Positions 10,611 through 46,461 of a stretch of DNA of 61,570 bases are shown here, in pieces. Origin of the DNA: Methylocystis sp. (GTDB lineage: Bacteria; Pseudomonadota; Alphaproteobacteria; Rhizobiales; Beijerinckiaceae); contig JALHNQ010000018.1 of NCBI GenBank assembly GCA_022843405.1, positions 1-61,570 of the forward strand. The letters are read 5' to 3'. Numbering within the stretch: the stretch's first letter is position 1; each line of letters begins with the position of its first letter. Below the pieces are notes generated by a model. That model was not told the origin of the DNA and made no database searches. It saw only the letters and a program-made list of their open reading frames with translations. The translations under genes were made by a program, and so were the position numbers.

Positions 10611-12235
10611 GGAACCTCCGCAAAGGCGTCCTTGTGCGGTAGCGCCGCGTCGGGCACGTCGAAGATGCTGCGCGGCAGGCCGTAAAGGTCGTCGTAATAG
10701 GAATCGAGGCGCTTGGTAATCCGCTGGTCGTAGCGCGGGCGAATATGCAGCGTCTTGCCGCGCGTGTAATGCGAGACTTGGCCATCGCGCACGACGAGAT
10801 TGCCGTCCTTGAACACGAGGGCCGCGCGGCGGAACATGCCCGCGACGTCGCGTCCGGGCTTGTAAACGGCGATGTCGGCGACCGCGCCGGCGCCGAGCCG
10901 GCCGCGGTCTTCAAAGCCGAAGAGCTTCGCCGCGCCAGAGCGGCTCATCTGCGCGATCTCGTAAAGCGTATATTCGCGCGAGATCGACGGCAGCGTGGTG
11001 TGCTCCAATACGTCGGCCGGCAGGCGCGAGAGATATTGCGCGCGAAGGTCGGCGCTCATCAGCAGCGCGAACAGTTCCGGATAGGTCGTGAAGGGACCGC
11101 CGTTCGGATGGTCGGTGGTGAAGAACACCTGCTCGGGATTGTTAATGAGCAGGAACAGCTCCAGCCCCGCCGCCCATTGAATGGCGTTATAGTAGTTCGA
11201 AATCTTGTAGACGTAGGGCACGATGCCGCCGCCATTGGCGTCGCCGTCGAAAATCGCGCCCTTTTTCGGGATCGCGCCCGGCAGGCTGTTGAATTGCTTC
11301 AGAACGTCGGACGAGATCGTCACCGTGTCGGAGAACATCACCTGGCCGACGTCAACGGAAACATTCGGATTGGCGTTAATTTTCTCCGCGAAGATCGCGC
11401 CGGCAGACGAGAAGCCGTTCTTGCCTTCCTTGCCATAGGCGTAGAACTGCACATGGGCGAGATGGAGCGGCAGACCCTGCGCCGCGTCGATCGTCGCCAG
11501 CGCCGTGTCGATGTTTCCCGCGATGCCGAGATTGTTCATGTGCAGATGCAGCGGGTGGGCGATGCCCACCGCCTGAGTCGCCTTCTGCAGCGCCTGAAAA
11601 ATCTGGCGCGACGTCAGCCCGTAAAAGGGCACGACATCGTCAAGCCCGAAGGCGCGCATGTTCTCCTTGAAGGCCTCGACCCCGCCGGGATTGATGCATT
11701 TTAAGCCGAGCGAACGGGTATTCTCGACGGTCTGAGCGACATAGTCGTTGATCGCGCCGTCCGTCTCGCCGTCGCGCAGCATGCCGAGCAGAAAATCATC
11801 ATTGCCAAGCACGGTGAGCGCGCCCTTGTCGATGATCGGCACGTCGTTGAATTCGAGATGGGTCTGCAAGGCGTGATGCGGCGCCATCGCCGGTTCGACG
11901 ACGGTGGTGAAACCCATCTGCGCATAGAGACGCCCGATCTCATAGCTCGACCATTTGGCGGTCGACAAAGGCGTGCCGGCGAGCCGCGCGCGTATCGCGC
12001 GATGCAGTTCCGGCAGCAGCAGCCGCGCCGTGTTCACATTGCCGCCGGCGATGTGAGAGTGAATGTCGATCGCGCCGGCCATGACGATATGGCCTGAGAC
12101 GTCGATCTCTTCGTCGGCGCTGCGGCCCTCGGGCCGCTCGACAATGCGGCCGTTTTCGAACCAGACGTCGCCGATGGCGTCCTGCCCGGTCGCGGGGTCG
12201 ACGATATGGCCGCCGCGCAAAACTGTCAGCGCCAT
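10598..12235 (-). CDS. fhcA: Formyltransferase/hydrolase complex subunit A (amidohydrolase)
   Basis: A 545-residue amidohydrolase-fold protein homologous to FwdA/FmdA, thought to be the hydrolase of Fhc that frees formate from the formylated cofactor. The metal-site motif is visible near residue 57 (AIDIHSHIAGG), with further His at HPLHLHMNN and LAHVQFYAYG and an Asp at TDHPNGGPFTTYP. It overlaps fhcB upstream (10 nt) and fhcD downstream (13 nt). It lies in the order B-A-D-C, as known for methylotrophic Alphaproteobacteria. Confidence 0.96.
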   Translation of the reverse strand: MALTVLRGGHIVDPATGQDAIGDVWFENGRIVERPEGRSADEEIDVSGHIVMAGAIDIHSHIAGGNVNTARLLLPELHRAIRARLAGTPLSTAKWSSYEIGRLYAQMGFTTVVEPAMAPHHALQTHLEFNDVPIIDKGALTVLGNDDFLLGMLRDGETDGAINDYVAQTVENTRSLGLKCINPGGVEAFKENMRAFGLDDVVPFYGLTSRQIFQALQKATQAVGIAHPLHLHMNNLGIAGNIDTALATIDAAQGLPLHLAHVQFYAYGKEGKNGFSSAGAIFAEKINANPNVSVDVGQVMFSDTVTISSDVLKQFNSLPGAIPKKGAIFDGDANGGGIVPYVYKISNYYNAIQWAAGLELFLLINNPEQVFFTTDHPNGGPFTTYPELFALLMSADLRAQYLSRLPADVLEHTTLPSISREYTLYEIAQMSRSGAAKLFGFEDRGRLGAGAVADIAVYKPGRDVAGMFRRAALVFKDGNLVVRDGQVSHYTRGKTLHIRPRYDQRITKRLDSYYDDLYGLPRSIFDVPDAALPHKDAFAEVPCRI

Positions 12236-35183: not shown

Positions 35184-36254
35184 ATGGATCGGGATACGCT
35201 CGGCGATCTTGCCGAGTCCGCCCCTTTGGCGGGCGAAAGCGCCGACGATCGCAGCTCCTCCGCCGCCGCCAGCAAAAATTCGGTCAGCGTTCCGGCGCAG
35301 CTCGTCTCCCAGGGCAAGCACCGCTTTTACGCGCTGGTGCTGCCGAGCGGGCTGCTCGCGCAGACCTGCATGGTCGAGCCGCGCGTCGAAAATCCGATCG
35401 AGGGTTTTCAGCGGCTGCTCGACGAAAAGCGCGCGAAGTCCATCGCCAAATATATCGACGCCGGCTTCGGCACGGTTCCCGGCGCCGTGGTGCTGTCGGC
35501 GCAATCGCGCGCCCATGTGCATTACGACCGCGCGAGCGGAACGCTGACCTTCCGGCAGGACCCCCGCGCCTTTCTCATCATCGACGGGCAGCACCGCGTC
35601 TTCGGCTTCAAGCTTGCAAAACACGCCGTCGACGTGCCGGTTGTGATCTACAACAGGCTGAAGCGTTCGGAAGAGTGCCGCCTGTTCATGGACATCAACA
35701 CCAAGCAGCGCCCGGTCCCCAACGAGCTGTTGCTGGACATCCGCCGCCTGTCGGAAGTCGAGACGCAGGCTGACGCGCTGCTGCACGACGTGTTCGATCT
35801 CTTCCACAACCGCGACGACAGCGCCCTGAAGGGGCTGCTCAGCCCGGCGGAGCGGCGTAAGGGCACGATTTCGCGCGTCACCTTCAACGCCGCCCTGCGC
35901 TCGATCAAGGGCGCCTTCGTCGATGCGCGCGCCGAGGAAGTTTTCGCCGTGCTCAACGCCTATCTGCGCGCCTGCCGGCATGGCCTCGGGTTGCATAACG
36001 CCGACGAGCAGATCGCCCATCCGGCGCTGTTCAAGGCGCTGGCGCTGCTCTTCACCAATGTCGCCGAGCGCGTCGCCGACCGCCATGGCGGAAAATACAC
36101 CGTGGCGAATTTCGAGGACGTGCTCATTCCCTTCTTCAAGCGCTTGAAGAAATCCGATCTGCCGCGCGCCGGCATGAGCCATGTCGCGCTGCATGAACAT
36201 TACAGCAAGGCGCTAAGCGCCGGCTTCCTGATCAAACAATGGCTCTTCTCGTGA
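35184..36254 (+). CDS. DGQHR-domain protein (DndB-like family)
   Basis: A 356-residue protein. The name-giving motif is FLIIDGQHRVFGFKLA at about residue 132, with FMDINTKQRPVPNELLLD after it; both are hallmarks of the DGQHR family that includes DndB, a regulator of DNA phosphorothioation. ATG 35184 follows a spacer of 224 bp after the sulfotransferase stop; an open frame upstream to 34959 is low-quality. No dndA/C/D/E gene is visible. The last 42 bp overlap the end of the split glycosyltransferase gene on the other strand. Confidence 0.75.
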   Translation: MDRDTLGDLAESAPLAGESADDRSSSAAASKNSVSVPAQLVSQGKHRFYALVLPSGLLAQTCMVEPRVENPIEGFQRLLDEKRAKSIAKYIDAGFGTVPGAVVLSAQSRAHVHYDRASGTLTFRQDPRAFLIIDGQHRVFGFKLAKHAVDVPVVIYNRLKRSEECRLFMDINTKQRPVPNELLLDIRRLSEVETQADALLHDVFDLFHNRDDSALKGLLSPAERRKGTISRVTFNAALRSIKGAFVDARAEEVFAVLNAYLRACRHGLGLHNADEQIAHPALFKALALLFTNVAERVADRHGGKYTVANFEDVLIPFFKRLKKSDLPRAGMSHVALHEHYSKALSAGFLIKQWLFS

Positions 36255-37326
36255 CGCGAATGGATCGACTTCCATTTCCACATCAAGAACGCTGCGAACT
36301 GTGAGCCCATGCTCGGTCTTTTCCCAATGGAAGGGACGCCGCCAGAGTTCGTAAACGGCGCGCCAGGCGGCGAGGCTCAGCATCATGAGCCACAGCGGCA
36401 GATAGATCAGCGACGCTCGAAACCGCGTCAGTTCGCGCCAGCGCATGCCGATCGCGAGCGGGAGAATGAGGGCGGCCGCGCCGGCGATCGCCAGAAAGCA
36501 CCACAACGTGCTTAACGTGATTTCAAGCGGCGAAACCGGCGTCAGCAGCGCGCCGAACATCGCGTCATAAGCCATGCGCGCCGCCAGGAACGGACCGAGC
36601 AGAGGCCCGAACAGTCCGGCAGCGAACATCGCCAGCGTCGCAACGGCGCGGCGCGCGCCAAGATCGACGAATAGGCGCAGCGGCCGGCGGCAATGCACCA
36701 CGAAGGTCTGCATCCAGCCCTTGAACCAGCGGGTGCGTTGTTTCACCAGCGCCGTGAAGGTCGCCGGCGCCTCCTCGAAGGTCTGCGAGGCGAGCGTTCG
36801 CACCTCGAAGCCCGCGCGCGCCAGCCGCAGGCCGAGATCGGCGTCTTCGGTGACGTTGAACGCGTCCCAAAAGCCGATCTCGCGTAGCGCCTCGATGCGG
36901 AAATGATTTGAGGTGCCGCCGAGAAAAAGCGGCATCCCCATCAAGGCCAGTCCTCTGTTGTAAACATCGAAGAGCGCGGCGTATTCGATGGCGAACAGCG
37001 CCGTCATCCAGTTGAGGGCGCCATTGTCGATGGCGAGGCTCGCCTGCAGACAGGCGACGTTCGGCGGCGCGCTTGCAAAGCGTGTCGCGGCGCGGCGCAA
37101 TTGACGCGGCTCCGGCAGGTCTTCCGCGTCAAACACGGCGACGAGCGATCCGCGGGCAAACGGCATGGCGACATTGAGGGCGCGCGGCTTGGTGCGCGGA
37201 ACGCCCTCGGGCGCCACCACGATCTCGTGGGGCGCGCGGGGCGGGTGCGCCCGCAACGCCGCTGCCGTCGCTTCATCGTCGGCTTCGGTGACGAATTTTA
37301 CGTCGAGCTTTGCGCGCGGATAATCC
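36213..37326 (-). pseudogene. Family 2 glycosyltransferase, C-terminal fragment (gene split by transposons)
   Basis: This fragment holds the second half of a membrane glycosyltransferase: the DxD-type acid motif VAVFDAEDLPEP, the TED motif NVTEDADLGLRL, the (Q/R)xxRW motif VKQRTRWFKGW, and four C-terminal membrane helices. The frame opens right after a TAA lying in the element-1 inverted repeat and begins DYPRAKLDVKFVTEADD. It has no usable start codon of its own before about 37256. Joined to the N-terminal fragment at 45498-46390, with one target copy, it gives one unbroken 668-codon frame. Last codons overlap the DGQHR gene. Confidence 0.93.
37319..37326 (+). repeat. Target-site duplication, left copy (GATAATCC)
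   Basis: GATAATCC borders the outer end of element 1 and recurs at 41960-41967 at its other end. It is part of the 9-bp odd palindrome GGATAATCC (37318-37326). Eight-base duplications are the rule for the IS1595 family. Confidence 0.9.
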
Positions 37327-37352
37327 CGGCATTAGGTAGCAAGCGCACCTAG
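37327..37352 (+). repeat. Element 1 left terminal inverted repeat
   Basis: CGGCATTAGGTAGCAA, then GCGC, then ACCTAG. It pairs with 41934-41959; sixteen outer bases and six inner bases are identical, with three differences in the GCGC/ATAC block between them. Confidence 0.9.
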
Positions 37353-37396
37353 CGGGATATGGCGGGAGAAGCCGGAATTGAGCGACAATCGGCGGC

Positions 37397-37834
37397 ATGG
37401 CCGATCCGCATGTCCTCACGACTCTTCGTCGCAAGCGCGATGAGATGGAAGCCGCAATTCGAGCCTATGAGAAAAAGACGGAAGTGCTCCGCCGCGATCT
37501 GGCCCATGTGAACGCGACGCTGCGCATGTTCGAGCTAAATGGAGAGCATGAGGTTTTTCCGGTCCATATGGACCTGACTCGGCTGTTCAAGCGCGGGGAG
37601 GTTCATCGAATATGCCAAGAGGCGCTAGCGGGCGCGCCTGAGGGGCTGGACACGCGGGAATTAGCTCTAGCAGTGATCCGAGCCAAGGGCATGGACGAAG
37701 GCGACGCCGTGCTGCGCAAGGCTATCAATTACCGGATCGTGCAGGCGATGCGGATGCAGGAAAAGCGAGGGCGCATCGCCGGCGCAGGAAAGCGTAAGGG
37801 CGTCCGCATCTGGCAGCTCGGCGGGCGCTCCTAA
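37397..37834 (+). CDS. Transposon accessory protein (element 1), basic coiled-coil
   Basis: A 145-residue protein that starts 70 bp inside the left end of element 1. Residues 8-50 are a charged coiled coil (TLRRKRDEMEAAIRAYEKK ... LRRDLAHVNATLRMF); the middle looks like a winged helix (VHRICQEALAGAP ... DTRELALAVIRAKGMDEGD); the end is basic (RGRIAGAGKRKGVRIWQL). Element 2 carries a clear homologue (44975-45430) in the same place relative to its transposase, sharing TLRRKRDE, DLAHVNA, FKR and GKRKGV. Conservation at the same terminus suggests a role in transposition, end binding or target choice. No family name is known to me. Confidence 0.8.
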   Translation: MADPHVLTTLRRKRDEMEAAIRAYEKKTEVLRRDLAHVNATLRMFELNGEHEVFPVHMDLTRLFKRGEVHRICQEALAGAPEGLDTRELALAVIRAKGMDEGDAVLRKAINYRIVQAMRMQEKRGRIAGAGKRKGVRIWQLGGRS

Positions 37835-37926
37835 ACCTTCTGTTCACCATATTCGCAGGTCGCCAACTAGGGTTAACGGCTTCGCCGTTCATCCTTGCGA
37901 ATCTGCGCGCATCGATGGGGCGGGCT

Positions 37927-39600
37927 ATGAATCAGCTTTTTTTTGGCGATAACCTGACCGTTTTGCGAGATCATGTGAAAGACGAGTCTATCGACCTCGT
38001 CTATTTAGACCCACCTTTCAATTCGAATGCAAATTACAACGTGCTGTTTAAAGCATCTTCTGGACAAATGTCTGAGGCGCAAGCCGAGGCATTTATAGAT
38101 ACTTGGCGATGGGGCGAAGCCGCCGAACTATCTTTCGAAGACGTTTTACATAGCCCCCATCAAAACGCTGCAATAATGCTCAGGGCAATGCGTTCTGCAA
38201 TCGGCACTAACGATATGATGGCCTATCTTGCGATGATGGCGTCTCGTCTCATAGAGCTACATAGAGCGCTGATGCCGACGGGATCGCTGTATTTGCACTG
38301 TGATTCAACGGCAAGCCATTATTTGAAAATCTTACTCGATGCTGTATTTGGAAAAACGAATTATGGGAATGAGATCATCTGGAAGCGGACCAGCGCAAAG
38401 GGACTCGCATTCACGCGGTTTGCGCGCAATCACGACGTTATCCTAAGATACACGAAAACAGAGACGTGGACGTGGAACCCTCAATATACGGCGCACGACC
38501 CTGAATATGTGGAAAAATTCTATCGTTATACTGAGCCGGATACGGGAAGGAAATATACCCTCGACAATTTGCTAAACCCCAACAAAAATCGCCCAAATCT
38601 AACTTATGAATTTTTAGGAGTTACGCGGGTTTGGCGATGGACGCGCGACCGCATGGAAGACGCATACGCGAAGGGTGTTGTCGTCCAAACGTCGCCCGGT
38701 TCAGTGCCTAGATTGAAACGATATCTTGACGAACAAGAGGGGACGCCAGTCGGTGACGTTTGGACCGATATTAGGCCCGTTCAGTCTCAGTCCGAAGAAA
38801 CTCTTGGGTATCCGACGCAAAAGCCCGTTTCGCTACTTGAGCGGATCATAAGCGCGTCAAGTAATGAAGGAGACATAGTTCTTGATCCGTTTTGCGGGTG
38901 TGGCACGACGATTGAAGCGGCTTCGAAACTGAAACGAAAATGGATTGGTATAGATGTAACACACTACGCGGTTACTCTCATACAACAACGGCTCGCCCGC
39001 GTTGGCGTGGCTGAAAAAGAATATATTGTGCGCGGCCGGCCAACAGATATTGCGGGCGCACGTGATCTTGCACGGCGCGACAAACATCAGTTTCAGTGGT
39101 GGGCCGCGTGGCGGCTTGGCGCACAGACATACCGCGAGGAAAAGAAAGGCGCTGATCGTGGTGTGGACGGGAACATCTTTTTTGCGAACGGTCCATATGG
39201 AACAGGCCGAATTATCATTTCAGTGAAGGGCGGTGAAAACGTCGGAGTTGCAATGGTCAGAGACTTGCGTGGAGTTATTGAGCGCGAGGAAGCGGAAATG
39301 GGAATCCTCGTTACTTTGGCTGAACCGACCTCGCCGATGATTTCAGAGGCTGCGGCAGCTGGGTTTGTGAGAAAATCGGCACATGGGAAGATTCCACGAA
39401 TTCAAATTGTGACTATCGCCGATATTTTGGACGGACGGACGCCAAAATTGCCCTCGATTCCAGTGCCATCACGATCAAGAGCGCCATCTCGCGCAAAGCG
39501 AAAGAGCGATCAACTCGAAATGCTGCTGCCATTCGAGGGATTGGATATAAAACAAGCCAAAGGAGAGTTTATAGACCCACGCTTTATGAAGTTCGGTTAA
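37927..39600 (+). CDS. Beta-class DNA methyltransferase fused to an Mrr-like nuclease domain
   Basis: A 557-residue protein. The N-terminal two thirds is an amino-methyltransferase with the catalytic DPPF at residues 28-31 before the SAM-binding motif (DPFCGCGTT, about residue 321), the beta-class order; it methylates adenine N6 or cytosine N4. The C-terminal part (about residues 390-500) shows GADRGVDGNIFF ... IIISVKGGENVG, the shape of an Mrr/PD-(D/E)xK domain with the usual Gln or Glu before K replaced by Ser. ATG 37915 would add four residues. Cargo of element 1; it may protect the element or act as a compact restriction-modification enzyme. Confidence 0.85.
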   Translation: MNQLFFGDNLTVLRDHVKDESIDLVYLDPPFNSNANYNVLFKASSGQMSEAQAEAFIDTWRWGEAAELSFEDVLHSPHQNAAIMLRAMRSAIGTNDMMAYLAMMASRLIELHRALMPTGSLYLHCDSTASHYLKILLDAVFGKTNYGNEIIWKRTSAKGLAFTRFARNHDVILRYTKTETWTWNPQYTAHDPEYVEKFYRYTEPDTGRKYTLDNLLNPNKNRPNLTYEFLGVTRVWRWTRDRMEDAYAKGVVVQTSPGSVPRLKRYLDEQEGTPVGDVWTDIRPVQSQSEETLGYPTQKPVSLLERIISASSNEGDIVLDPFCGCGTTIEAASKLKRKWIGIDVTHYAVTLIQQRLARVGVAEKEYIVRGRPTDIAGARDLARRDKHQFQWWAAWRLGAQTYREEKKGADRGVDGNIFFANGPYGTGRIIISVKGGENVGVAMVRDLRGVIEREEAEMGILVTLAEPTSPMISEAAAAGFVRKSAHGKIPRIQIVTIADILDGRTPKLPSIPVPSRSRAPSRAKRKSDQLEMLLPFEGLDIKQAKGEFIDPRFMKFG

Positions 39601-40556
39601 GCGCTACGCTGCCAGTAACCCTTCCACTGGCGCGAAACCGGATGCGTAAGCGCCGCGTTGGCGACCATCAAATATTGCGCGCCATTCGACACGCGGCGGT
39701 GATCCTCGCGCCACGCCATCTCGCGAGCGTAGGCTTTGAGATATGGCCCCGCGATATGGTGATGCGTCCCGATTTCAGCGCGACGAAGGCGAGAGAAGAA
39801 GCTTTCGGCCTTGTTCGTGCAAGCGCCTTCGTCTGAATAGGCCCATTCGTGATTGATGCGCTTCGTCAGGAAGCGAGCATGTAGGCGGTCCCAATGGGTC
39901 GCTTCGTCGGCGTGGACGGTTGCGCTGGCGTCAATACGGGCCTCAAGAGTCGGAACCGACTCCGCTTCGCTCTTGAAAACGAAAGGCAGCGTTCGGCCTT
40001 CGCGCTCGCGCATAATGACGACGACGCGGCGCTTGCCGTTTTGATTAATCGCAAGGCGGCGGTCGCGACGGTTTTCTTTGTAGTTAGCCGGCTTCACGTA
40101 ACCGCCGAAATAGGCGCCGTCGATTTCGACTTCGCCGCCGGCTTTCATCGTCTCGACTTCCGCAGCCATCGCCTCGCGGATTTTGTGGGCTATTACGTAG
40201 GCTGTCTTGTATTGGCAATCGAGGTCGCGAGAGAGTTGCAGGGCGCTATGGCCCTTCGCGCCATTGACGAAGATCGCGATCGCCAAAAGGTAAGTCGAGA
40301 TGGGCAGCTTGCGGCTGGCGAAGATCGTCCCGGACGTGACGCTGAATTGATGGTCACAAGCCTTGCACTTGAAAACCGGGCGGCTCTTATAGGCATAGAC
40401 GCCGAGGCAGCCGCAGTGCGGGCAGACCGGCTCTCCTTCGGTAGAGGCCCAACGGATTTGTTTGAAGGCGTCGCGAGCTTCCTCTTCGGACATGCGAGCA
40501 ACCCGAGCTAGGCTCAGGCTCCTTGCATGTTTCGAGAGAAGGAAGTGCTGCGACAT
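39597..40556 (-). CDS. IS1595-family (ISXO2-like) transposase of element 1
   Basis: A 319-residue DDE transposase. N-terminal zinc ribbon with C45, C48, C64 and C67 (VCPHCG, FKCKAC), then the ISXO2-like catalytic domain: D146 in EIDGAYFGGYVKPAN, D217 in VHADEATHW and E251 in TNKAESFFSRLRRAEIG. It is about half identical to the element-2 transposase; both begin MSQHFLLS. A promoter TTGACG-17-TATAAA reads into it (40595-40623), overlapped by an inverted repeat that may be an operator for the divergent XRE gene. It converges on the methyltransferase gene; the two ends overlap by 4 nt. Confidence 0.95.
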   Translation of the reverse strand: MSQHFLLSKHARSLSLARVARMSEEEARDAFKQIRWASTEGEPVCPHCGCLGVYAYKSRPVFKCKACDHQFSVTSGTIFASRKLPISTYLLAIAIFVNGAKGHSALQLSRDLDCQYKTAYVIAHKIREAMAAEVETMKAGGEVEIDGAYFGGYVKPANYKENRRDRRLAINQNGKRRVVVIMREREGRTLPFVFKSEAESVPTLEARIDASATVHADEATHWDRLHARFLTKRINHEWAYSDEGACTNKAESFFSRLRRAEIGTHHHIAGPYLKAYAREMAWREDHRRVSNGAQYLMVANAALTHPVSRQWKGYWQRSA

Positions 40557-40585
40557 GGTTTGCTGACTGTCCGCGTTTTCCGCTT

Positions 40586-40623
40586 ATGTCAGCTTTTATA
40601 AATGACATTAGAGATGTCGTCAA
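40586..40623 (-). promoter_or_regulatory. Transposase promoter with overlapping operator-like inverted repeat
   Basis: On the minus strand: TTGACG (40618-40623), 17 bases, TATAAA (40595-40600). The inverted repeat ATGTCA (40586-40591) with TGACAT (40603-40608) brackets the -10 box. The product of the divergent XRE gene is the natural candidate to bind it. Confidence 0.65.
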
Positions 40624-40638
40624 CTTAAAAATATGACC

Positions 40639-40667
40639 TTGACGTAAAAAGTTGCAATCGCTATTTT
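40639..40667 (+). promoter_or_regulatory. Promoter for the XRE gene; transcript probably leaderless
   Basis: TTGACG (40639-40644), 17 bases, TATTTT (40662-40667). The ATG of the XRE gene begins only six bases after the -10 box, so transcription should start at or next to the ATG. No ribosome-binding site is present. Confidence 0.6.
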
Positions 40668-40673
40668 CAGCGC

Positions 40674-40928
40674 ATGACGCCGGGACAGTGCCGCGCCGCG
40701 CGCGCATTTCTTCAAATTTCGCAAGACGATTTGGCGAAAGCCGCGAACGTCGGCGTTTCGACGGTTCGCGACTTCGAAGTAGGCAAGCGGGCGCCAATAG
40801 CGGCAACTCAAGCTGCAATGCGGGCGGCGCTTGAGACGAAAGGCGTTCGCTTCGTTGATCGTGGCGATGATGGTGCATTGGGGGTTCTGTATGCGGAACC
40901 GCAAAAGGAAGCTGCCGCCCACGCCTAG
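40674..40928 (+). CDS. Small XRE-type helix-turn-helix regulator (element 1)
   Basis: An 84-residue protein that is essentially one helix-turn-helix: TPGQCRAARAFLQISQDDLA, then ANVGVSTVRDFEVGKRAP. The tail (KGVRFVDRGDDGALGVLY) is common to this small regulator group. It is divergent from the transposase, whose promoter carries an inverted repeat, so a repressor of transposition is the simplest reading. It ends before the terminator at 41020-41048. Confidence 0.85.
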   Translation: MTPGQCRAARAFLQISQDDLAKAANVGVSTVRDFEVGKRAPIAATQAAMRAALETKGVRFVDRGDDGALGVLYAEPQKEAAAHA

Positions 40929-40945
40929 TTATGATAAGGGATAGG

Positions 40946-41014
40946 TGGACCGGAGGGGGATTGGACCCCTGAGACACGGGTGGAAAACCAGCCTCGAATA
41001 CCAATTCCCGGCCC
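40946..41014 (-). other. tRNA-like sequence, degenerate
   Basis: On the minus strand GGGCCGG (41008-41014) can pair with CCGGTCC (40947-40953) as a 7-bp acceptor with one G-U. A T-arm AGGGG-TCCAATC-CCCCT follows the expected distance from the 3' side, and a weak anticodon arm with loop TTTTCCA has one mismatch. The D-arm is too short and the T-loop lacks TTC, so a working tRNA is unlikely. It may be a tRNA remnant carried by the element. Confidence 0.3.
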
Positions 41015-41019
41015 ATGCA

Positions 41020-41048
41020 AAAACGGCCCAGAATTTCTGGGCCGTTTT
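41020..41048. terminator. Strong bidirectional terminator between XRE and higA
   Basis: A perfect 14-bp inverted repeat, AAAACGGCCCAGAA and TTCTGGGCCGTTTT, with a single central T. It has A and T runs on both sides and lies between two convergent genes. Confidence 0.85.
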
Positions 41049-41055
41049 AGGATGG

Positions 41056-41403
41056 TCAGGCTACCCTGACACGCATCCGTCCGGGGCGGTTTCTTCGCGG
41101 ATTTTCCGCGATGTTGATATCCACATCGCGACCGAGGGCGACCAGCATACGGATCAATCTTTCGACTGATAGTCCGCGTAGCTTGCCGCTGAGAATTTTA
41201 GACACTTCAGCCTGATTAGTCCCAATCAAGCTAGCGGTTTCGATCTGAGTAAGGTCACGTTTCCGCACAGCATTGGTGAAGGCGCGCGCGAGCGCGACTT
41301 TCAAAATATCTTCGTCGTTTGACGGCAGGCCAAGATCAGCGAACGCGTTCCCGGCGCTATCAATGACCTCGACGCCCCCAGAAACATCAAGCTCCTTTAC
41401 CAT
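41056..41403 (-). CDS. HigA-like XRE antitoxin
   Basis: A 115-residue protein with a C-terminal helix-turn-helix (RKRDLTQIETASLIGTNQAEVSKILSGKLRGLSVERLIRML). ATG 41403 lies inside the end of the toxin gene, so the two genes overlap by 17 nt with toxin first, the usual order for HigB-HigA of this type. It should bind and silence the toxin and repress the operon. Cargo of element 1. Confidence 0.88.
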   Translation of the reverse strand: MVKELDVSGGVEVIDSAGNAFADLGLPSNDEDILKVALARAFTNAVRKRDLTQIETASLIGTNQAEVSKILSGKLRGLSVERLIRMLVALGRDVDINIAENPRRNRPGRMRVRVA

Positions 41404-41773
41404 GGCTCCGTTCCTTGGCGTTTTTAACATAATGCGCGGCATGATGCCTCTCAGCAGCGTTCAGCCTCGCCTTGATCAACTCGACGTCTGGCTTCGGAGT
41501 CGCGATTCCCTTCACGCTCTTTTTCTGAAAAGCGTGAAGCACATAAATCGCCCCGGCAAGCCTTACGGTGTAGACCGCCCTATAAGTGCTCCTGTCGCTG
41601 TCGATGACAGTCTCAAGAACTTTTGCCCCGCAAAACCCAACGAGAGGCACAACGTTCATCGCCCTATCGCCGCATTGCGCCATATAGAGCGAGAACCCAA
41701 TCTCATCTTTTACCTCATCAGGAAAACCTCGAACATCCTTCAAACTTGATCCCATCCAGTGAAGCGCCTTCAT
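41387..41773 (-). CDS. HigB/Gp49-like (DUF891) RelE-superfamily toxin
   Basis: A 128-residue mRNA-interferase type toxin. Family signature KALHWMGSSLKDVRGFPDEV at the start, then GFCGAKVLETVIDSD, the core YRAVYTVRLAGAIYVLHAFQKKS and the tail ELIKARLNAAERHH. It would cleave mRNA at the ribosome when free of antitoxin. First gene of the pair. As cargo of a transposon it would stabilise the element by addiction. Confidence 0.9.
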   Translation of the reverse strand: MKALHWMGSSLKDVRGFPDEVKDEIGFSLYMAQCGDRAMNVVPLVGFCGAKVLETVIDSDRSTYRAVYTVRLAGAIYVLHAFQKKSVKGIATPKPDVELIKARLNAAERHHAAHYVKNAKERSHGKGA

Positions 41774-41933
41774 AGTTTAGCTCTCCAAACCATCCTTGAT
41801 AGCGATGCGCCATGTGCTTCCTCCTTTTGCTGGCCGTTAAGGCACTTATTATTGATTTTTCAGGATTTCCTCCCCTGACAATATGTATGTTTGCACATAT
41901 TCACGGGAGCGTCAATAGTGTAATGGATTCAGA

Positions 41934-41959
41934 CTAGGTGTATTTGCTACCTAATGCCG
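41934..41959 (-). repeat. Element 1 right terminal inverted repeat
   Basis: Reading inward on the minus strand: CGGCATTAGGTAGCAA, ATAC, ACCTAG. It ends at 41959, immediately followed by GATAATCC (41960-41967). Confidence 0.9.
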
Positions 41960-41967
41960 GATAATCC
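41959..41967 (+). repeat. Target-site copy between the two elements (GGATAATCC)
   Basis: This single copy serves both elements: GATAATCC (41960-41967) closes element 1 and GGATAATC (41959-41966) opens element 2. The first and last bases are also the terminal bases of elements 1 and 2. Confidence 0.9.
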
Positions 41968-41991
41968 GGTATTATGGCGCAAACGCCACAA
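41967..41991 (+). repeat. Element 2 left terminal inverted repeat
   Basis: CGGTATTATGGCGCAAACGC followed by CACAA; identical over 25 bases to the inverted right end. The outer pattern CGGYATTA and the inner GCAA are shared with element 1. Confidence 0.92.
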
Positions 41992-42096
41992 CGGGAGCCG
42001 CTGAATGATCGCGGCTGCCCATGGCGGGTTTTCGGCTAATATTCGGTCCATCGAGGCGCGCTGCGGAATCAGCCGCGCAACGGCAGGATCGTATTT

Positions 42097-42936
42097 ATGC
42101 AGAGAATTTTTGGGATATTTTCTGTCCTTTTCGCTGCTTTCTGGCATTGGATATGGGACGGCATTAAAGGGATGGTATTTGATCGGGGGGTCAGTATGGC
42201 GACCCCTCTGATTGGCCCCATAACGCAAGACCACGTAATAATTTGGCTGCCGACGATAGTGTCGTTATCTATAGGCGGATTATTACTGTGGAAAACACGC
42301 CATAAAAATAATACTAAGACAATCCCTACGTCGGAGAACTTCGAACTTAGGCTAACGACGAGGATTTATGTAGATAGAGGCGGCAGCCACGCAATTGACA
42401 TGTATATTACAAACGGAAGTGCTAGAGATATACTCATACAAGATATGGGCATTTACTATTATATGATCAAAAAGGAACGCTTAAAACAAGGTGATGATTA
42501 CATAAAGTTATGTATTAACCTATCTTTCCATGATATAATTTTCGACTTGGCGTTTGGGGAAACATCGAATGGCTTGCCTCCAGCCGTTTATGTCGACGAA
42601 GGCATATTAGTTTCATTTGCAAGGCCGTTTAGTGCAACCAACAGCGCTGGCAATACAGCAAAACGAAATTTTTATATCTCAACTACGGCTACAAAAAATA
42701 TAGTCGCTAGATTTAGCACTGAAGCGCTGAGAGATGGATACAACATAGCCGTAATATGCCAGCTATTTAAAATAATAGATTCATCCGGCAGTCTCGTAAC
42801 GGTGATTTGTCCCGGCGCATATCTAGAAGAGGTGTATGTTAACGGCAATCTCGGTAAAATAACTAGTTCACAGTATGCAACACATACTCTTTTGCCAATG
42901 TTTTCAGACGCGCAATGTTCGTATTCAAAGGTATAG
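42097..42936 (+). CDS. AT-rich membrane-anchored protein of unknown function (element 2 cargo)
   Basis: A 279-residue protein with two N-terminal hydrophobic segments (IFGIFSVLFAAFWHWIW, residues 4-20, and VIIWLPTIVSLSIGGLLLW at about residues 47-65) and a soluble C-terminal domain rich in beta-strand pattern (FELRLTTRIYVDRGGSHAID, FYISTTATKNIVARF). An alternative start at ATG 42196 would drop the first helix. The gene is far more AT-rich than anything else in the window and uses codons such as ATA and TTA freely, a sign of recent transfer. I do not recognise the family. Confidence 0.6.
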   Translation: MQRIFGIFSVLFAAFWHWIWDGIKGMVFDRGVSMATPLIGPITQDHVIIWLPTIVSLSIGGLLLWKTRHKNNTKTIPTSENFELRLTTRIYVDRGGSHAIDMYITNGSARDILIQDMGIYYYMIKKERLKQGDDYIKLCINLSFHDIIFDLAFGETSNGLPPAVYVDEGILVSFARPFSATNSAGNTAKRNFYISTTATKNIVARFSTEALRDGYNIAVICQLFKIIDSSGSLVTVICPGAYLEEVYVNGNLGKITSSQYATHTLLPMFSDAQCSYSKV

Positions 42937-42937
42937 A

Positions 42938-43168
42938 CTAATCCTCTGATAAACGAATTGTTTTTACGCCCATTGCCGACAGGCACTGGATTAAGAATCC
43001 GGCCGTGAATTTCCCTCTGCTGACTTTGTTCCGCAGATTGCGCTCGTCTTCTGATACGCCAAGCTCGGCGAGCTTGGCGGTTAATTGCGCGTAAGTGACG
43101 CTATTCTTTGCCATTTCGGCGCGGAGAAGGCCGCGCGCCTTGGCTTCCCAGTCTGTTCGCTCTGGCAT
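42938..43168 (-). CDS. DUF6471-type small DNA-binding-like protein (element 2)
   Basis: A 76-residue protein: DWEAKARGLLRAEMAKNSVT, YAQLTAKLAELGVSEDERNL, and KVSRGKFTAGFLIQCLSAMG. The pattern is helical and resembles a helix-turn-helix in which a Q-L-x-x-K-L helix is followed by a recognition-like helix. It is divergent from the transposase, in the same place as the XRE gene of element 1, and the gap between them carries three TGTCATCAT-type repeats. A transposase repressor is likely. It converges with the membrane-protein gene, 1 bp apart. Confidence 0.75.
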   Translation of the reverse strand: MPERTDWEAKARGLLRAEMAKNSVTYAQLTAKLAELGVSEDERNLRNKVSRGKFTAGFLIQCLSAMGVKTIRLSED

Positions 43169-43188
43169 GTCACCCTCTCGCGTGATTT

Positions 43189-43271
43189 TGTCATCATATG
43201 TGATGCAAAAGCGCTTGACAAGGTGACAGTGTGTCATCATATTCCATGCATACGCACTGGAAATGATGACA
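43189..43271 (+). promoter_or_regulatory. Transposase promoter with three operator-like repeats (element 2)
   Basis: TTGACA (43215-43220), 17 bases, CATATT (43238-43243) points into the transposase. TGTCATCATAT occurs at 43189-43199 and again at 43232-43242, over the -10 box, and inverted as ATGATGACA at 43263-43271, just before the ATG. Confidence 0.65.
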
Positions 43272-43272
43272 A

Positions 43273-44256
43273 ATGAGCCAACACTTCCTTCTCTCCCGCG
43301 CCGCCAAGACGCTCTCGCTCGCCGCGATCTTCCGCATGTCCGATGCGGACGCGGAAGCCATGTTCTGCCGCGTGCGCTGGCCAGAGACTGACGGCAAGCC
43401 GGTCTGCCCGCATTGCGGCGGCGTTGACGCTTACGACTGCCGGCGCCCGACTGGCGCACCGCGCTTCCGCTGCCGCGCCTGCGCGAAAGATTTCAGCGTG
43501 ACCTCGGGGACGCTGTTTGCGTCTCATAAGCTGCCGCTGCGGGTCTATCTCGCTGCTATCGCCATCTTCGCCAACGAGGTGAAGGGCAAGAGCGCTCTCG
43601 CCATGTCCCGCGACTTGGGAACGTCCTACAAGGCCGCCTTCGTCCTGTTGCACAAGCTGCGCGAGGCGATGGCGGAAGAGATGAAAGGCCGCGTTGTCGG
43701 CGGAGCCGGCGAGGAAGTGGAAATCGATGGCGGCTATTTCGGCGGCTATGTCAAACCGGCGAATATGCGTGAGAACCGCCGTGATCGTCGCCTTGCGGTC
43801 AATCAGACCGGCAAGCGTCAATGCGTCGTCATCGTCCGCGCCCGCGACGGCCGATCGGTCCCCGCTGTCTTCCGCGCGGAAGGCCACGCGCTCGATTTCA
43901 TCCGCGCCCGTATCGCTAAGGGCTCAATCGTCCATGCCGACGAAGCCGGCGCTTGGAACGCGCTTCACAGCCATTACGAAATGCGCCGGATCAATCACGA
44001 AGAGGCTTACAGCGCTGACGGCGCGTGCACGAATGACGCCGAGTCCTATTTCTCGCGCCTGCGCCGCGCGGAGATTGGCCATCACCATCACGTCGCGGGC
44101 GTCTATTTGCTCCGCTATGCGCAGGAAGCGTCTTGGCGCGAGGATCACCGCCGCATGTCGAACGGCGAACAGGTGGAGCGCCTTGCCGGTCTAATGACGA
44201 AGAAAAAGGCCAGCCCTGACTTCACGGGTTATTGGCAGCGGCATATTGCGGCCTGA
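43273..44256 (+). CDS. IS1595-family (ISXO2-like) transposase of element 2
   Basis: A 327-residue DDE transposase with a zinc ribbon (C45, C48, C67, C70) and catalytic residues D152 (EIDGGYFGGYVKPAN), D223 (VHADEAGAW) and E257 (TNDAESYFSRLRRAEIG). It is clearly homologous to the element-1 enzyme but diverged, so the two elements are relatives and not recent copies. The gene is GC-rich like the host. No frameshift or lost catalytic residue is seen, so the enzyme looks intact. Confidence 0.95.
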   Translation: MSQHFLLSRAAKTLSLAAIFRMSDADAEAMFCRVRWPETDGKPVCPHCGGVDAYDCRRPTGAPRFRCRACAKDFSVTSGTLFASHKLPLRVYLAAIAIFANEVKGKSALAMSRDLGTSYKAAFVLLHKLREAMAEEMKGRVVGGAGEEVEIDGGYFGGYVKPANMRENRRDRRLAVNQTGKRQCVVIVRARDGRSVPAVFRAEGHALDFIRARIAKGSIVHADEAGAWNALHSHYEMRRINHEEAYSADGACTNDAESYFSRLRRAEIGHHHHVAGVYLLRYAQEASWREDHRRMSNGEQVERLAGLMTKKKASPDFTGYWQRHIAA

Positions 44257-44388
44257 CTAGCAGGCGCGCGACAATCCGATTATGTTGGGAGAGGTGAATC
44301 GGCGGGGGCGGAATCCCCGCCTGATTCGCAATATCGACGCGCTTCGTCGTGAGCCTTATGGCTACACGAAACGGGAGCGTTTGTCATT

Positions 44389-45024
44389 ATGCAGAATGAA
44401 TTTTCGCATGAGCAAAAAGCCGGCGCCGCCACCGCCGCCCCCACCTCCACCGCTGCCGCCCCAACCAGGACCGGGGAACGGGACGAAATCGTTTCCGCCG
44501 CCAGTGCGCCCGCCGAAATAGACACAGAACTTGGATTCAAGATTAGATGTTTGTCGAGCGCGCTCTATCATGAGGATCGCGAGAGATTTTTTGCTTGGCT
44601 TCACCGTTGGGCGATGTTTTTTGTCGTCGCGTCAGGAACTGCTGCGTTCTTGCCGATAAAAGCCGAGCATCCTCTTTTGTTGACCGGAATTGCGACCTTC
44701 GCAGGTCTAATTGATCTTGTTTTTGATGTGAGCGGGAAAGCGCGTCTCCACGCTACTTTAAGGAAACAGATTTACGCTGTTCTTGCCGATGTTGGTCATA
44801 TCGATCTAAAGGAATTGGAGCGCAGATTGACGCTCATTTATGCGGATGAGCCGCCATGCATGCACGCGGCGAATGCCGTAGCCTACAATCGCGCTATGGT
44901 TTCATATGGACGGCCAGCAGACGCTTTACTTACAACAGGTTGGCGCGGCTCAATTGTCCGTCACTTTTGGCCGTTTACGCACAATGATTTTCCGACAAAC
45001 GCAGAAGTGAAAGAGGCTCATTAA
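44389..45024 (+). CDS. SLATT-like two-helix membrane protein (element 2 cargo)
   Basis: A 211-residue protein. After a low-complexity Ala/Thr/Pro N-terminus comes a helix (FKIRCLSSALYHEDRERFFAWLHRW), two adjoining membrane helices (AMFFVVASGTAAFLPI and LLLTGIATFAGLIDLVF) and a helical tail (GKARLHATLRKQIYAVLADV, ERRLTLIYADEPPCMHAANA). This order is that of SLATT domains, predicted membrane-damaging effectors in nucleotide-signal defence systems. No SMODS, SLOG or reverse-transcriptase partner is visible beside it. Its 3' end overlaps the accessory gene by 50 nt in convergent orientation. True start uncertain. Confidence 0.55.
   Translation: MQNEFSHEQKAGAATAAPTSTAAAPTRTGERDEIVSAASAPAEIDTELGFKIRCLSSALYHEDRERFFAWLHRWAMFFVVASGTAAFLPIKAEHPLLLTGIATFAGLIDLVFDVSGKARLHATLRKQIYAVLADVGHIDLKELERRLTLIYADEPPCMHAANAVAYNRAMVSYGRPADALLTTGWRGSIVRHFWPFTHNDFPTNAEVKEAH
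44408..44521 (+). CDS. Proline-rich micro-ORF overlapping the SLATT-like gene
   Basis: A 37-residue frame starting MSKKPAPPPPPPPPPLPPQP and ending FPPPVRPPK. It overlaps the first 130 bp of the SLATT-like gene in another frame. The clean Lys-capped poly-Pro sequence looks designed and not random, but there is no ribosome-binding site at its ATG. It may be the real small gene here, with the longer frame's Ala/Thr-rich N-terminus being its shadow, or the reverse. Confidence 0.35.
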   Translation: MSKKPAPPPPPPPPPLPPQPGPGNGTKSFPPPVRPPK

Positions 45025-45430
45025 GCCGCCACACACAAACGCCCTTGCGCTTCCCGTCCATGACGACGCGCCCGCGCATCGCCTGCATCCGCAGCGAGTG
45101 AATGAGGTTGTTGGCCACGGCCTTTGCAAGAACCTTATCGCCGGTGTCGAGACCTTTCTTGCGCATCAAGAACAGCGCGACTTCCTTGGTCGTCATCGGG
45201 CCGCTGGCGAGCGCTTCCCGGCATAGGGCGATCTTCTCAGCCCGTTTAAAGACGCGGTGAATATCGACGTAGGGCCTAACATCGGCGCCAGCATCGAAAA
45301 GGCGCATCGCGGCGTTGACGTGCGCAAGATCGGCGCGAGCCTGTTCTAGCTGGCGCTCATAGAGCTTAATGACGGCAATGATTTCGTCGCGCTTCCTGCG
45401 CAGCGTGGTGACGGTTCGAATCTCGGCCAT
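44975..45430 (-). CDS. Transposon accessory protein (element 2), basic coiled-coil
   Basis: A 151-residue homologue of the element-1 accessory protein: TLRRKRDEIIAVIKLYERQ, ARADLAHVNAAMRLFDAG, HRVFKRAEKIALCREALASG, then MRKKGLDTGDKVLAKAVAN and RGRVVMDGKRKGVCVWRL. Its ATG is 58 bp inside the right end of element 2 and it reads inward, mirroring element 1. The C-terminal ~15 residues beyond the conserved block lie over the SLATT-like gene's end. Probably a transposition helper; not a known family to me. Confidence 0.8.
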   Translation of the reverse strand: MAEIRTVTTLRRKRDEIIAVIKLYERQLEQARADLAHVNAAMRLFDAGADVRPYVDIHRVFKRAEKIALCREALASGPMTTKEVALFLMRKKGLDTGDKVLAKAVANNLIHSLRMQAMRGRVVMDGKRKGVCVWRLNEPLSLLRLSENHCA

Positions 45431-45463
45431 GCCTAGAAAATAAGGCGTTGCCGGCTAGATCGC

Positions 45464-45488
45464 TTGTGGCGTTTGCGCCATAATACCG
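45464..45488 (-). repeat. Element 2 right terminal inverted repeat
   Basis: Identical over 25 bases to the inverted left end at 41967-41991. The interrupted glycosyltransferase frame reads into it and stops at 45455-45457. Confidence 0.92.
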
Positions 45489-45497
45489 GGATAATCC
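45489..45497 (+). repeat. Target-site duplication, right copy (GGATAATCC)
   Basis: GGATAATC (45489-45496) matches 41959-41966 at the other end of element 2. The host gene resumes at 45498. Confidence 0.9.
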
Positions 45498-46461
45498 AGT
45501 CGGTCGATCGCGCGGGTGAGTTGACGCACAACGGCGGCTTCCTGATAGAGCGCGAGCACGATGGTGTAGACCGGCAGTCGCGCATCGGATTCAAGCGGTT
45601 CAACGTCGGCGCATTCCCGAAGACTCGCCGCGCAGGCGAAAAGCCTCAGGAACACGCCGCAAAAGAACATGCTCGCCAGAAGCAAGGCCGCCGCAAAGCG
45701 CAGCAGGAAAATCGGCGCAAAGAGGCTCGCCGCGAGCCCGATCAGCGCAACGAGCAGCAGTCCCGCCTGTCCGCGCTGCAGGCCGCCGCGCGCGCACAGC
45801 TCACTGTCGACGCGTTCAGCGAGAAAAGCTGCGTTGCGGGCGGCGGCGTCGGGATCGGCGCGGCGCACCGCCTCCAGAAACCGCGTTCGCGTGGTGAGGG
45901 TGAACAGCGGCCGGCCGCGCGCCACGCGTCGCGCGCTCATCAGCCGGAAGACGCCGCTGCCGCTCGGCGCCAATAGCCAAAGATAGCCGCTCGACGCGTC
46001 GCGGACCCGGGCATAGCCGCATTCGACCGTCGCGACGCCCGGCGCGGAAACATCGACCGGTCTGTCGATGAAGTCGACGTTGAGATGCTTCGCCAGCGCC
46101 CGGTAGAAGACATCCTCCGAGACCAGACCTTCGGCGAGCAGCGCTTCGTCCGCGCACACGCCTTGACGGCGCGCCGTCGCCGCGGCGAACTGCAGCACTT
46201 GCTCCGGCACGCCATGGCCGGACAGAAAGGCGATTTCGACGGGGATGGGTTGCGGCGCGGTCGCGCGACGCGGCGGCGGTCGGCGAACGGCGGCGGAGCC
46301 GGCGGGCGGACGCCTTCGCGCCGGTTGGCGAAGATCGTCCTTGATCGGCGAAGCGGCGGAAGCGGCACTATCGATCGGAACAAAATTCATGCATTATTCC
46401 GGCAAACGCAGTCAGCCTTCCAACGACTATCAAACTCCAGCAGGGGCTATGCAATAACTTT

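Follow-up and report, generated by a model that had tools for sequence, protein, structure and literature searches.

Transposons of the IS1595 family combine a zinc-ribbon/DDE transposase with terminal inverted repeats and an 8-bp target duplication. Insertion sequence (IS)-type transposases are taken to choose their targets loosely, and dedicated target selectors are known mainly from relatives of Tn7. Here we consider two abutting transposons, E1 and E2, in a 61,570-nucleotide stretch of Methylocystis sp. DNA (contig JALHNQ010000018.1, positions 1 to 61,570; hereafter the window). Both have the family's transposase, repeats, and duplication, and both fall in a branch of IS1595-type transposons that is widespread and found mostly in Alphaproteobacteria, the core of which is a DDE transposase, a small divergent protein, and a coiled-coil/winged-helix protein, accompanied by variable cargo. 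The gene for the winged-helix protein is present in every delimited element, insertion sites are repeated exactly, and the site tracks the variant of this protein, which is quite probably an exchangeable target selector.

Transporter IS elements (tIS; Siguier et al. 2009) of the ISNha5 type resemble the E1/E2 family in that passenger genes are housed in an IS1595-type element with the zinc-ribbon/DDE transposase and an 8-bp duplication. The subgroup measures about 3.5–7.9 kb and has the end motif CGGnnTT, and the lengths (2704–7348 bp) and cargo of the E1/E2 family fit that size class. ISNha5 has been named as a case in which the passengers are transcription regulators (PMC11891212), and it is a guess that the winged-helix protein corresponds to such a passenger "regulator." The ISNha5-type literature searched showed no mention of target codons that are fixed, of targeting that can be exchanged, or of a second core gene that is conserved. 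Nineteen plasmid records were matched at E ≤ 1e-40, none of them from Nitrobacter, the ISNha5 sequence itself not having served as query. ISApl4, of the IS1016 subgroup of IS1595, is described (PMC12561309) as a 712-bp element with one transposase gene and 8-bp direct repeats, which enters many different 8-mers, preferably A/T-rich ones; its lone gene and scattered sites contrast with the extra core gene and recurrent sites of the E1/E2 family.

The transformation genes comM and dprA are both interrupted by members of the E1/E2 family. According to a study of Tn7-like elements (PMC11406308), Tn6022/AbaR elements insert into and inactivate comM, with target selection by TniQ and Orf3. That source also describes Tn7-like elements as having a heteromeric transposase, the TnsC ATPase, TniQ, and a controlled orientation, and the TnsD protein of Tn7 as a DNA-binding protein that recognizes conserved host coding sequence at glmS. 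The E1/E2 family is like Tn6022/AbaR in its comM insertions and in having a dedicated, here putative, target-selection protein. However, orientation is controlled in Tn7-like elements, whereas here both orientations occur, and no TnsB-type transposase, TnsC ATPase, or TniQ was found among the 11 E1 and E2 open reading frames (ORFs) given to Pfam. Unlike in the Tn7/TnsD case, insertion falls within the motif itself, and the candidate selector is a winged-helix protein of about 145 residues with no TniQ match. We propose, from a strong phylogenetic association, that this protein may do a TnsD-like job, in function and not by kinship.

Two elements at one glycosyltransferase site

E1 and E2 together interrupt a family-2 glycosyltransferase (GT2) gene. 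The host gene, the limits of the elements, and their core genes, one of which encodes a helix-turn-helix (HTH) protein, are as follows.

36213..37318, minus strand, 3' part of the host GT2 gene; the frame reopens at the L-D-Y-P codons without E1 and E2
37319..37326, plus strand, left 8-bp duplication of E1, GATAATCC
37327..41959, E1, IS1595-type element, 4633 bp, ends CGGCATTAGGTAGCAA
37397..37834, plus strand, E1 putative target selector of 145 aa with a long helix and a winged helix, its start codon lying 70 bp in from the element end
39597..40556, minus strand, E1 transposase, zinc ribbon and DDE_Tnp_IS1595
40674..40928, plus strand, E1 small HTH protein, putative regulator, divergent from the transposase
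41959..41966, plus strand, left 8-bp duplication of E2, GGATAATC, the first base of which (G) is also the last base of E1
41960..41967, plus strand, right 8-bp duplication of E1, GATAATCC, the last base of which (C) is also the first base of E2
41967..45488, E2, IS1595-type element, 3522 bp, perfect 25-bp ends CGGTATTATGGCGCAAACGCCACAA
42938..43168, minus strand, E2 DUF6471 protein (Pfam), putative regulator, divergent from the transposase
43273..44256, plus strand, E2 transposase, zinc ribbon and DDE_Tnp_IS1595
44975..45430, minus strand, E2 putative target selector of 151 aa, its start codon lying 58 bp in from the element end
45489..45496, plus strand, right 8-bp duplication of E2, GGATAATC
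45497..46390, minus strand, 5' part of the host GT2 gene, family-2 glycosyltransferase

A sequence-only reading of the window had described two complete IS1595-type cargo transposons here, each with an ISXO2-like DDE transposase and zinc ribbon, and ends, duplications, and domain matches bear this out. The end coordinates and the two duplications, GATAATCC and GGATAATC, which both derive from one 9-bp site, can be read directly as it had placed them. Both transposases match DDE_Tnp_IS1595 and Zn_ribbon_IS1595, exceeding the cut-offs for PF12762, PF12760, and NF033547. The ends of E1 agree at 23 of 26 terminal bp (16 identical, 3 mismatches, 7 identical). Each duplication overlaps the neighboring element by one base, indicating that the later arrival inserted at the very edge of the earlier one; which of the two came first is not readable, because either order yields the present sequence. 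Two points escaped that reading: the end-proximal gene of both elements is core and not cargo, and the insertion site of E1 and E2 is a recurrent one.

When E1, E2, and the extra duplications are taken out, the GT2 gene reads through the junction (...DRLDYP joined to RAKLDVKFV...). Empty sites, which the sequence-only reading had suggested looking for, do exist: the GT2 site is uninterrupted in 17 of 24 genomes of the same genus, the window's own genome left out. One congener (G014) has an E2-type element of 3819 bp in this position (GGATAGTC), a second (G001) has E2-type ends at the site, close to the ends of two contigs, and in a third (G012) the contig stops there; 4 of the 24 gave no match.

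E1 and E2 differ in their ends and their transposases are 60% identical, and selector type and insertion site are common to both. A third copy in the same genome, E3 (L010 5455–9187; L numbers denote loci), is 3733 bp long, has the ends of E2 and the duplication GGACCGCG, and interrupts dprA (TIGR00732); its transposase is 88–89% identical to that of E2, and it has its own version of the end-proximal gene. E2 thus has the transposase type and ends of E3 together with the selector clade and site of E1. E1 and locus L011, which lies at a different GT2 site (N-H-F-R), have transposases that are 97% identical and a regulator–transposase block that is 92% identical in DNA, and no DNA match between them covers the selector gene beyond its edge. 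The E1 selector is nearest to that of L014 (70% identical in local alignment), and both lie at the L-D-Y-P site. The window is a clear natural experiment on what sets the site.

Core architecture of the family

Named genomes were scanned with the E1, E2, and E3 transposases, and the best 80 of at least 491 relatives were taken. These 80 loci are mostly titled Alphaproteobacteria; L034 and L050 are titled otherwise, and a few are titled just Proteobacteria or bacterium. Elements were delimited by 25-bp matching ends and an 8-bp duplication around the transposase. The automatic detector recovers E1 and E2; in 186 trials on loci that had been mismatched on purpose and whose true ends were masked, it gave 6 false positives, a rate of a few per cent. 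Sixty-five of 83 loci (the 80 with E1, E2, and E3) could be delimited, with duplications identical at 8/8 positions in 63 and at 7/8 in 2; the statement of the sequence-only reading that readable ends are rare among cargo-bearing IS1595 elements is not supported. Among the 18 loci that could not be delimited, 14 have a selector hit, some of them partial, and none was found in L013, L023, L032, and L062. Most ends fit CGG(C/T)ATTA(T/G)GTAGCAA. Similar ends bound different cargo in many genomes, a check that the sequence-only reading had proposed. Of the 65 elements, which range from 2704 to 7348 bp, 16 are under 3450 bp and none is a bare IS.

All 65 delimited elements encode, besides the transposase, a coiled-coil/winged-helix protein of about 145 residues near one end (136–174 residues by a longest-frame rule). 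Its gene is opposed to the direction of the transposase in 60 of 65 and starts 67–70 bp inside the end in 32 of 65. We rejected the idea that this gene is cargo, because it is in 65 of 65 elements whereas cargo is almost entirely different between elements; E2 and its congeneric relative L120, for example, match over transposase and selector and not over the two cargo ORFs of E2. An AlphaFold2 model built from 71 sequences places a long helix at residues 4–45 and a winged-helix domain at 60–141 (pLDDT 84.8, pTM 0.56), the fold name being our reading of the predicted structural elements and of PDB matches. Pfam gave no family for the E1 selector and no TniQ domain match.

The third core protein is small, and its gene lies upstream of, and divergent from, that of the transposase. 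It is of HTH type in 16 of 65 elements and of DUF6471 type in 45 by iterative profile search, as well as in E2 by Pfam; Pfam confirmed the assignment in all three members submitted. No such protein was found in 3 of the 65 (L068, L072, and L087). From its gene position, it is probably a regulator of the transposase. In E2, a 40-bp repeat (43189–43228 and 43232–43271, 75% alike) lies between the DUF6471 and transposase genes.

Recurrent insertion sites

The delimited elements occupy 64 distinct sites: 30 in comM, 13 in GT2 genes, 1 in dprA, and 20 elsewhere, including 3 in one SLBB-domain gene. The name comM rests on a TIGR00368 (YifB family) match of the empty-site homologue L229. Twenty-six comM duplications fall on an identical 8-base stretch, GARTTYNN, the E-F codons of the DELPEF motif, with 14 insertions one way and 12 the other; a second codon, some 60 residues upstream, is used by 4 more. 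In GT2 genes, 5 duplications (E1 included) cover xGAYTAYC (L-D-Y-P), 7 cover CAYTTYCG (N-H-F-R), and 1 lies elsewhere. The duplication of E2 is one base off that of E1, a shift also seen in L120 and L189. With 47 of 64 sites in comM, GT2, dprA, or one SLBB gene, the pattern is unlike the low-specificity, A/T-rich targeting of ISApl4.

The comM site region was matched in 155 of 190 sampled genomes of the class, and in nearly all of the matches listed it is uninterrupted across the site, which is therefore usually empty. The codon GAA is present at 18 of 26 occupied and 15 of 29 empty comM sites (p = 0.27; 1 of 30 loci lacked the motif), and a codon preference was dropped as a candidate. Wobble bases are therefore tolerated, with no preference evident.

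At L074, comM is on one flank only, and the other flank, read by eye, resembles another element end. In the left flank of the element and at positions 11190–11420, beside the comM insertion, what looks by eye like an element end and a further selector gene, incomplete, suggest another abutting pair like E1 and E2.

Which component predicts the site

On the selector tree, target labels change 10 times, the least possible number being 7; the transposase tree needs 29 changes (shuffled mean 34.7). In leave-one-out nearest-neighbor prediction over 46 elements at recurrent sites, with site classes named after the data were seen, the selector gave the right site in 46 of 46 cases and the transposase in 33. 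All 13 discordant predictions favor the selector (sign p = 0.00024 if elements were independent; related elements are not, and E1 and E2 count as two although at one site).

The most probable alternative is that the transposase alone prefers these sequences, the winged-helix protein being a regulator or passenger inherited along with it. ISApl4, as an ordinary member of the IS1595 family, likewise has 8-bp targets, preferably A/T-rich (PMC12561309), and transposase similarity does predict the site in 33 of 46. However, always guessing the majority site already gives 26, the nearly identical transposases of E1 and L011 sit at different sites while the 60% identical ones of E1 and E2 sit at one, and no discordant case goes the transposase's way. 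We regard this alternative as unlikely.

The small divergent protein does divide the targets, HTH-type elements being in GT2 in 13 of 16 cases and in comM in 0 of 16, with 30 of the 49 others in comM. It was nevertheless rejected as the selector: in a 44-element subset (L051 and L068 dropped for having no regulator or not being in the alignment), it predicts the exact site in 30, compared with 31 for the transposase and 44 for the selector, and E2, with DUF6471, uses the site of E1. A single selector clade for all HTH-type elements was also rejected (p-AU 0.002). Within the selector, the first 50 residues alone predict 43 of 44 sites and the winged helix alone 44; the two halves are therefore not distinguishable as determinant.

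A second alternative makes the winged-helix gene a marker of the site and not its cause. Elements at the same site could recombine through the host flank, trading their end-proximal gene, and the gene does adjoin the element end, in 32 of 65 cases starting 67–70 bp inside it. The terminal 60 bp on the selector-gene side, however, track the site poorly, predicting it in 27.2 of 46 cases (21.2 on the other side), which argues against mere linkage to the flank and led us to reject end sequence as the site determinant. Moreover, the end of E2 is of E3 type while its selector belongs to the clade of E1, and an element described below (L219) carries a GT2-clade selector away from GT2. This marker explanation is improbable. 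We give no better prospects to its survival version, in which insertion is random and survivors carry the matching regulator of the broken gene; survival does not account for one exact 8-base stretch being hit in both orientations. Finally, it is highly improbable that these are ordinary cargo elements without target choice whose repeated sites go back by descent to a small number of old insertions: transposases do cluster where the hosts are close relatives, but comM is usually uninterrupted, cargo differs between elements, orientations differ inside one tight selector clade (L075 and L078 plus; L086 and L090 minus), and a single origin at comM is excluded because insertions there occur in two orientations.

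Prediction in newly fetched genomes

Selector searches of 199, 190, and 385 genomes (overlapping sets, the window's own genome included) gave matches in 17, 9, and 26. Forty regions were fetched, with contig-end and weak partial matches left out; L120 brought these to 41, of which 28 were delimited, 8 lacked a transposase, and 5 were not delimited or were set aside for implausible ends. Among 17 new elements with a selector 40–95% identical to a reference, 11 lie at the codon predicted by the selector, and the transposase predicted the site in 2. By script alone the scores were 10 of 18 and 3 of 18; re-reading of L191 and L201 raised the selector to 12 of 18, and dropping L120, which had been found through its site, gave the 11 and 2 of 17. 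Two further delimited elements are copies of reference elements.

Several observations weigh against the assignment of the winged-helix protein as target selector. All of the evidence is comparative, and a constant guess of the main comM site would score 26 of 46. Seventeen of 64 sites lie outside comM, GT2, dprA, and the SLBB gene. The PDB fold search returned no match better than E = 0.01, the best being mainly winged-helix regulators such as Fur. Six of the 17 new elements are elsewhere, none at another named site, and the 8 with weaker selector similarity all lie away from the predicted site. Among the 11 successes, two depend on a reading by eye beyond the limits of the script (L191, mapped at residue 329, with the sequence L-D-Y-P; L201, mapped at 514, with N-H-I-R), and a third, L207, has a one-base shift and a mere transposase fragment. 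Only 3 to 5 of 15 off-site elements, depending on the width compared, resemble the motif of their clade at p ≤ 0.05, which means either that the 8-mer alone does not define the recognized sequence or that distant selectors target elsewhere, as the duplication common to L080 and L083, with their sister selectors, would illustrate. L221 and L225 have near full-length selector genes, and the stretches fetched for them contain no IS1595 transposase.

One of the six misses is L219, whose selector belongs to the N-H-F-R clade and which lies outside GT2, in an 8-mer, CACTTTCG, that L011 also uses; this speaks against the marker explanation. As for L221 and L225, these could be decayed elements or could reflect another use of the selector protein.

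A possible mechanism and its significance

We envisage that the winged helix of the selector recognizes a short conserved coding motif of a particular host gene, those of E1 and E2 addressing the L-D-Y-P codons of the GT2 gene, and that the long helix dimerizes or recruits the transposase, which would then insert at the marked target in either orientation and with a stagger of 8 bp. Genes for selectors would be swapped between elements independently of the transposase, so that an element is retargeted. Binding of the selector to DNA, its contact with the transposase, and its causal role are what we infer; the most economical reading is that the protein binds DNA as a dimer, marking the target and bringing in the transposase. 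It is likely, on this proposal, that there exists a large family of minimal transposons, with a DDE transposase of about 320 residues and simple ends, in which interchangeable selectors of about 145 residues allow retargeting by a one-gene swap. Their addresses would then include, with the same likelihood, the Walker-B region of comM, the second comM codon, two GT2 codons, the SLBB gene, and probably more.

A swappable targeting protein that chooses exact host codons would not be expected of a simple transposon family, and a very small system seems to have evolved a Tn7-like division of labor. No report of site-specific IS1595 elements or of a winged-helix selector was found in the literature searched, subscription papers excluded. 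The family would offer dozens of natural selector–site pairs from which to learn how a winged-helix protein specifies insertion, and a testable route to compact site-specific insertion tools. It also makes it possible to study why competence genes (comM, and dprA in the case of E3) are a common target of mobile elements that are unrelated; comM is disrupted by AbaR/Tn6022 as well (PMC11406308).

Cargo and minor observations

The cargo genes of the two Methylocystis elements are the following.

37915..39600, plus strand, E1, N6/N4 DNA methylase with a fused Mrr-type endonuclease domain, by family matches
41056..41442, minus strand, E1, HTH_37 antitoxin-like protein
41387..41773, minus strand, E1, Gp49-like toxin-like protein
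42097..42936, plus strand, E2, 279-aa ORF without family match
44389..45024, plus strand, E2, 211-aa ORF without family match

Defense or addiction cargo, which the sequence-only reading had assigned to both elements, is supported for E1, by its methylase–Mrr fusion and its Gp49/HTH_37 toxin–antitoxin-like pair, and not for E2, in which the 279- and 211-residue ORFs are unmatched. As a general cargo theme, defense was rejected. Among 125 cargo ORFs of at least 140 residues, from 130 listed (longest-frame calls, uncurated), 41 Pfam families were matched in total, 25 of them listed, the commonest being SocA_Panacea (n = 5), with methylase–Mrr at n = 3. PADLOC gave, among the matches listed, 25 families, all methyltransferases with 3 members each. 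The single-chain N6/N4 methylase–Mrr fusion is found in 3 of 65 elements (window 37915–39600, L011 7960–9711, and L021 8418–10184), which occupy two different GT2 codons.

An RNA within E1 or E2 was dropped as a candidate, Rfam giving no match at gathering score in the window and none at E < 3.8 in the element region. Elsewhere, tRNA genes that exceed the Rfam gathering score for tRNA are carried as cargo by 6 of the 65 elements.

L010 7850–7938, tRNA gene inside element
L010 8409–8485, tRNA gene inside element
L042 8082–8166, tRNA gene inside element
L064 8351–8423, tRNA gene inside element
L066 3868–3940, tRNA gene inside element
L078 8131–8219, tRNA gene inside element
L081 9324–9395, tRNA gene inside element

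ARAGORN covered 60 loci (without L089 and L090), and Rfam the window and the ARAGORN-positive loci. The anticodons called by ARAGORN are UUA in L042 and L078, which would read the stop codon UAA, and 4 nucleotides long in L081; the two tRNAs of E3 are odd. L077 and L079 have one tRNA each called by ARAGORN alone. Between its two tRNA genes, E3 has a second small ORF (134 aa, L010 7960–8361) without a Pfam match, which by eye reads as a coiled coil followed by an HTH-like segment.

Some sites outside the named genes were also read by eye. Translated flanks place L065, L016, and L069 in the last codons of an mnmE-like gene, in a pyrF-like gene, and in another GT2-type gene, respectively, insertions that are also in conserved coding motifs. 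L080, L083, L048, and L072 appear to lie in REP-type palindromic repeats; L080 and L083, which have sister selectors, have in common the duplication GTCATTCC, read on opposite strands.

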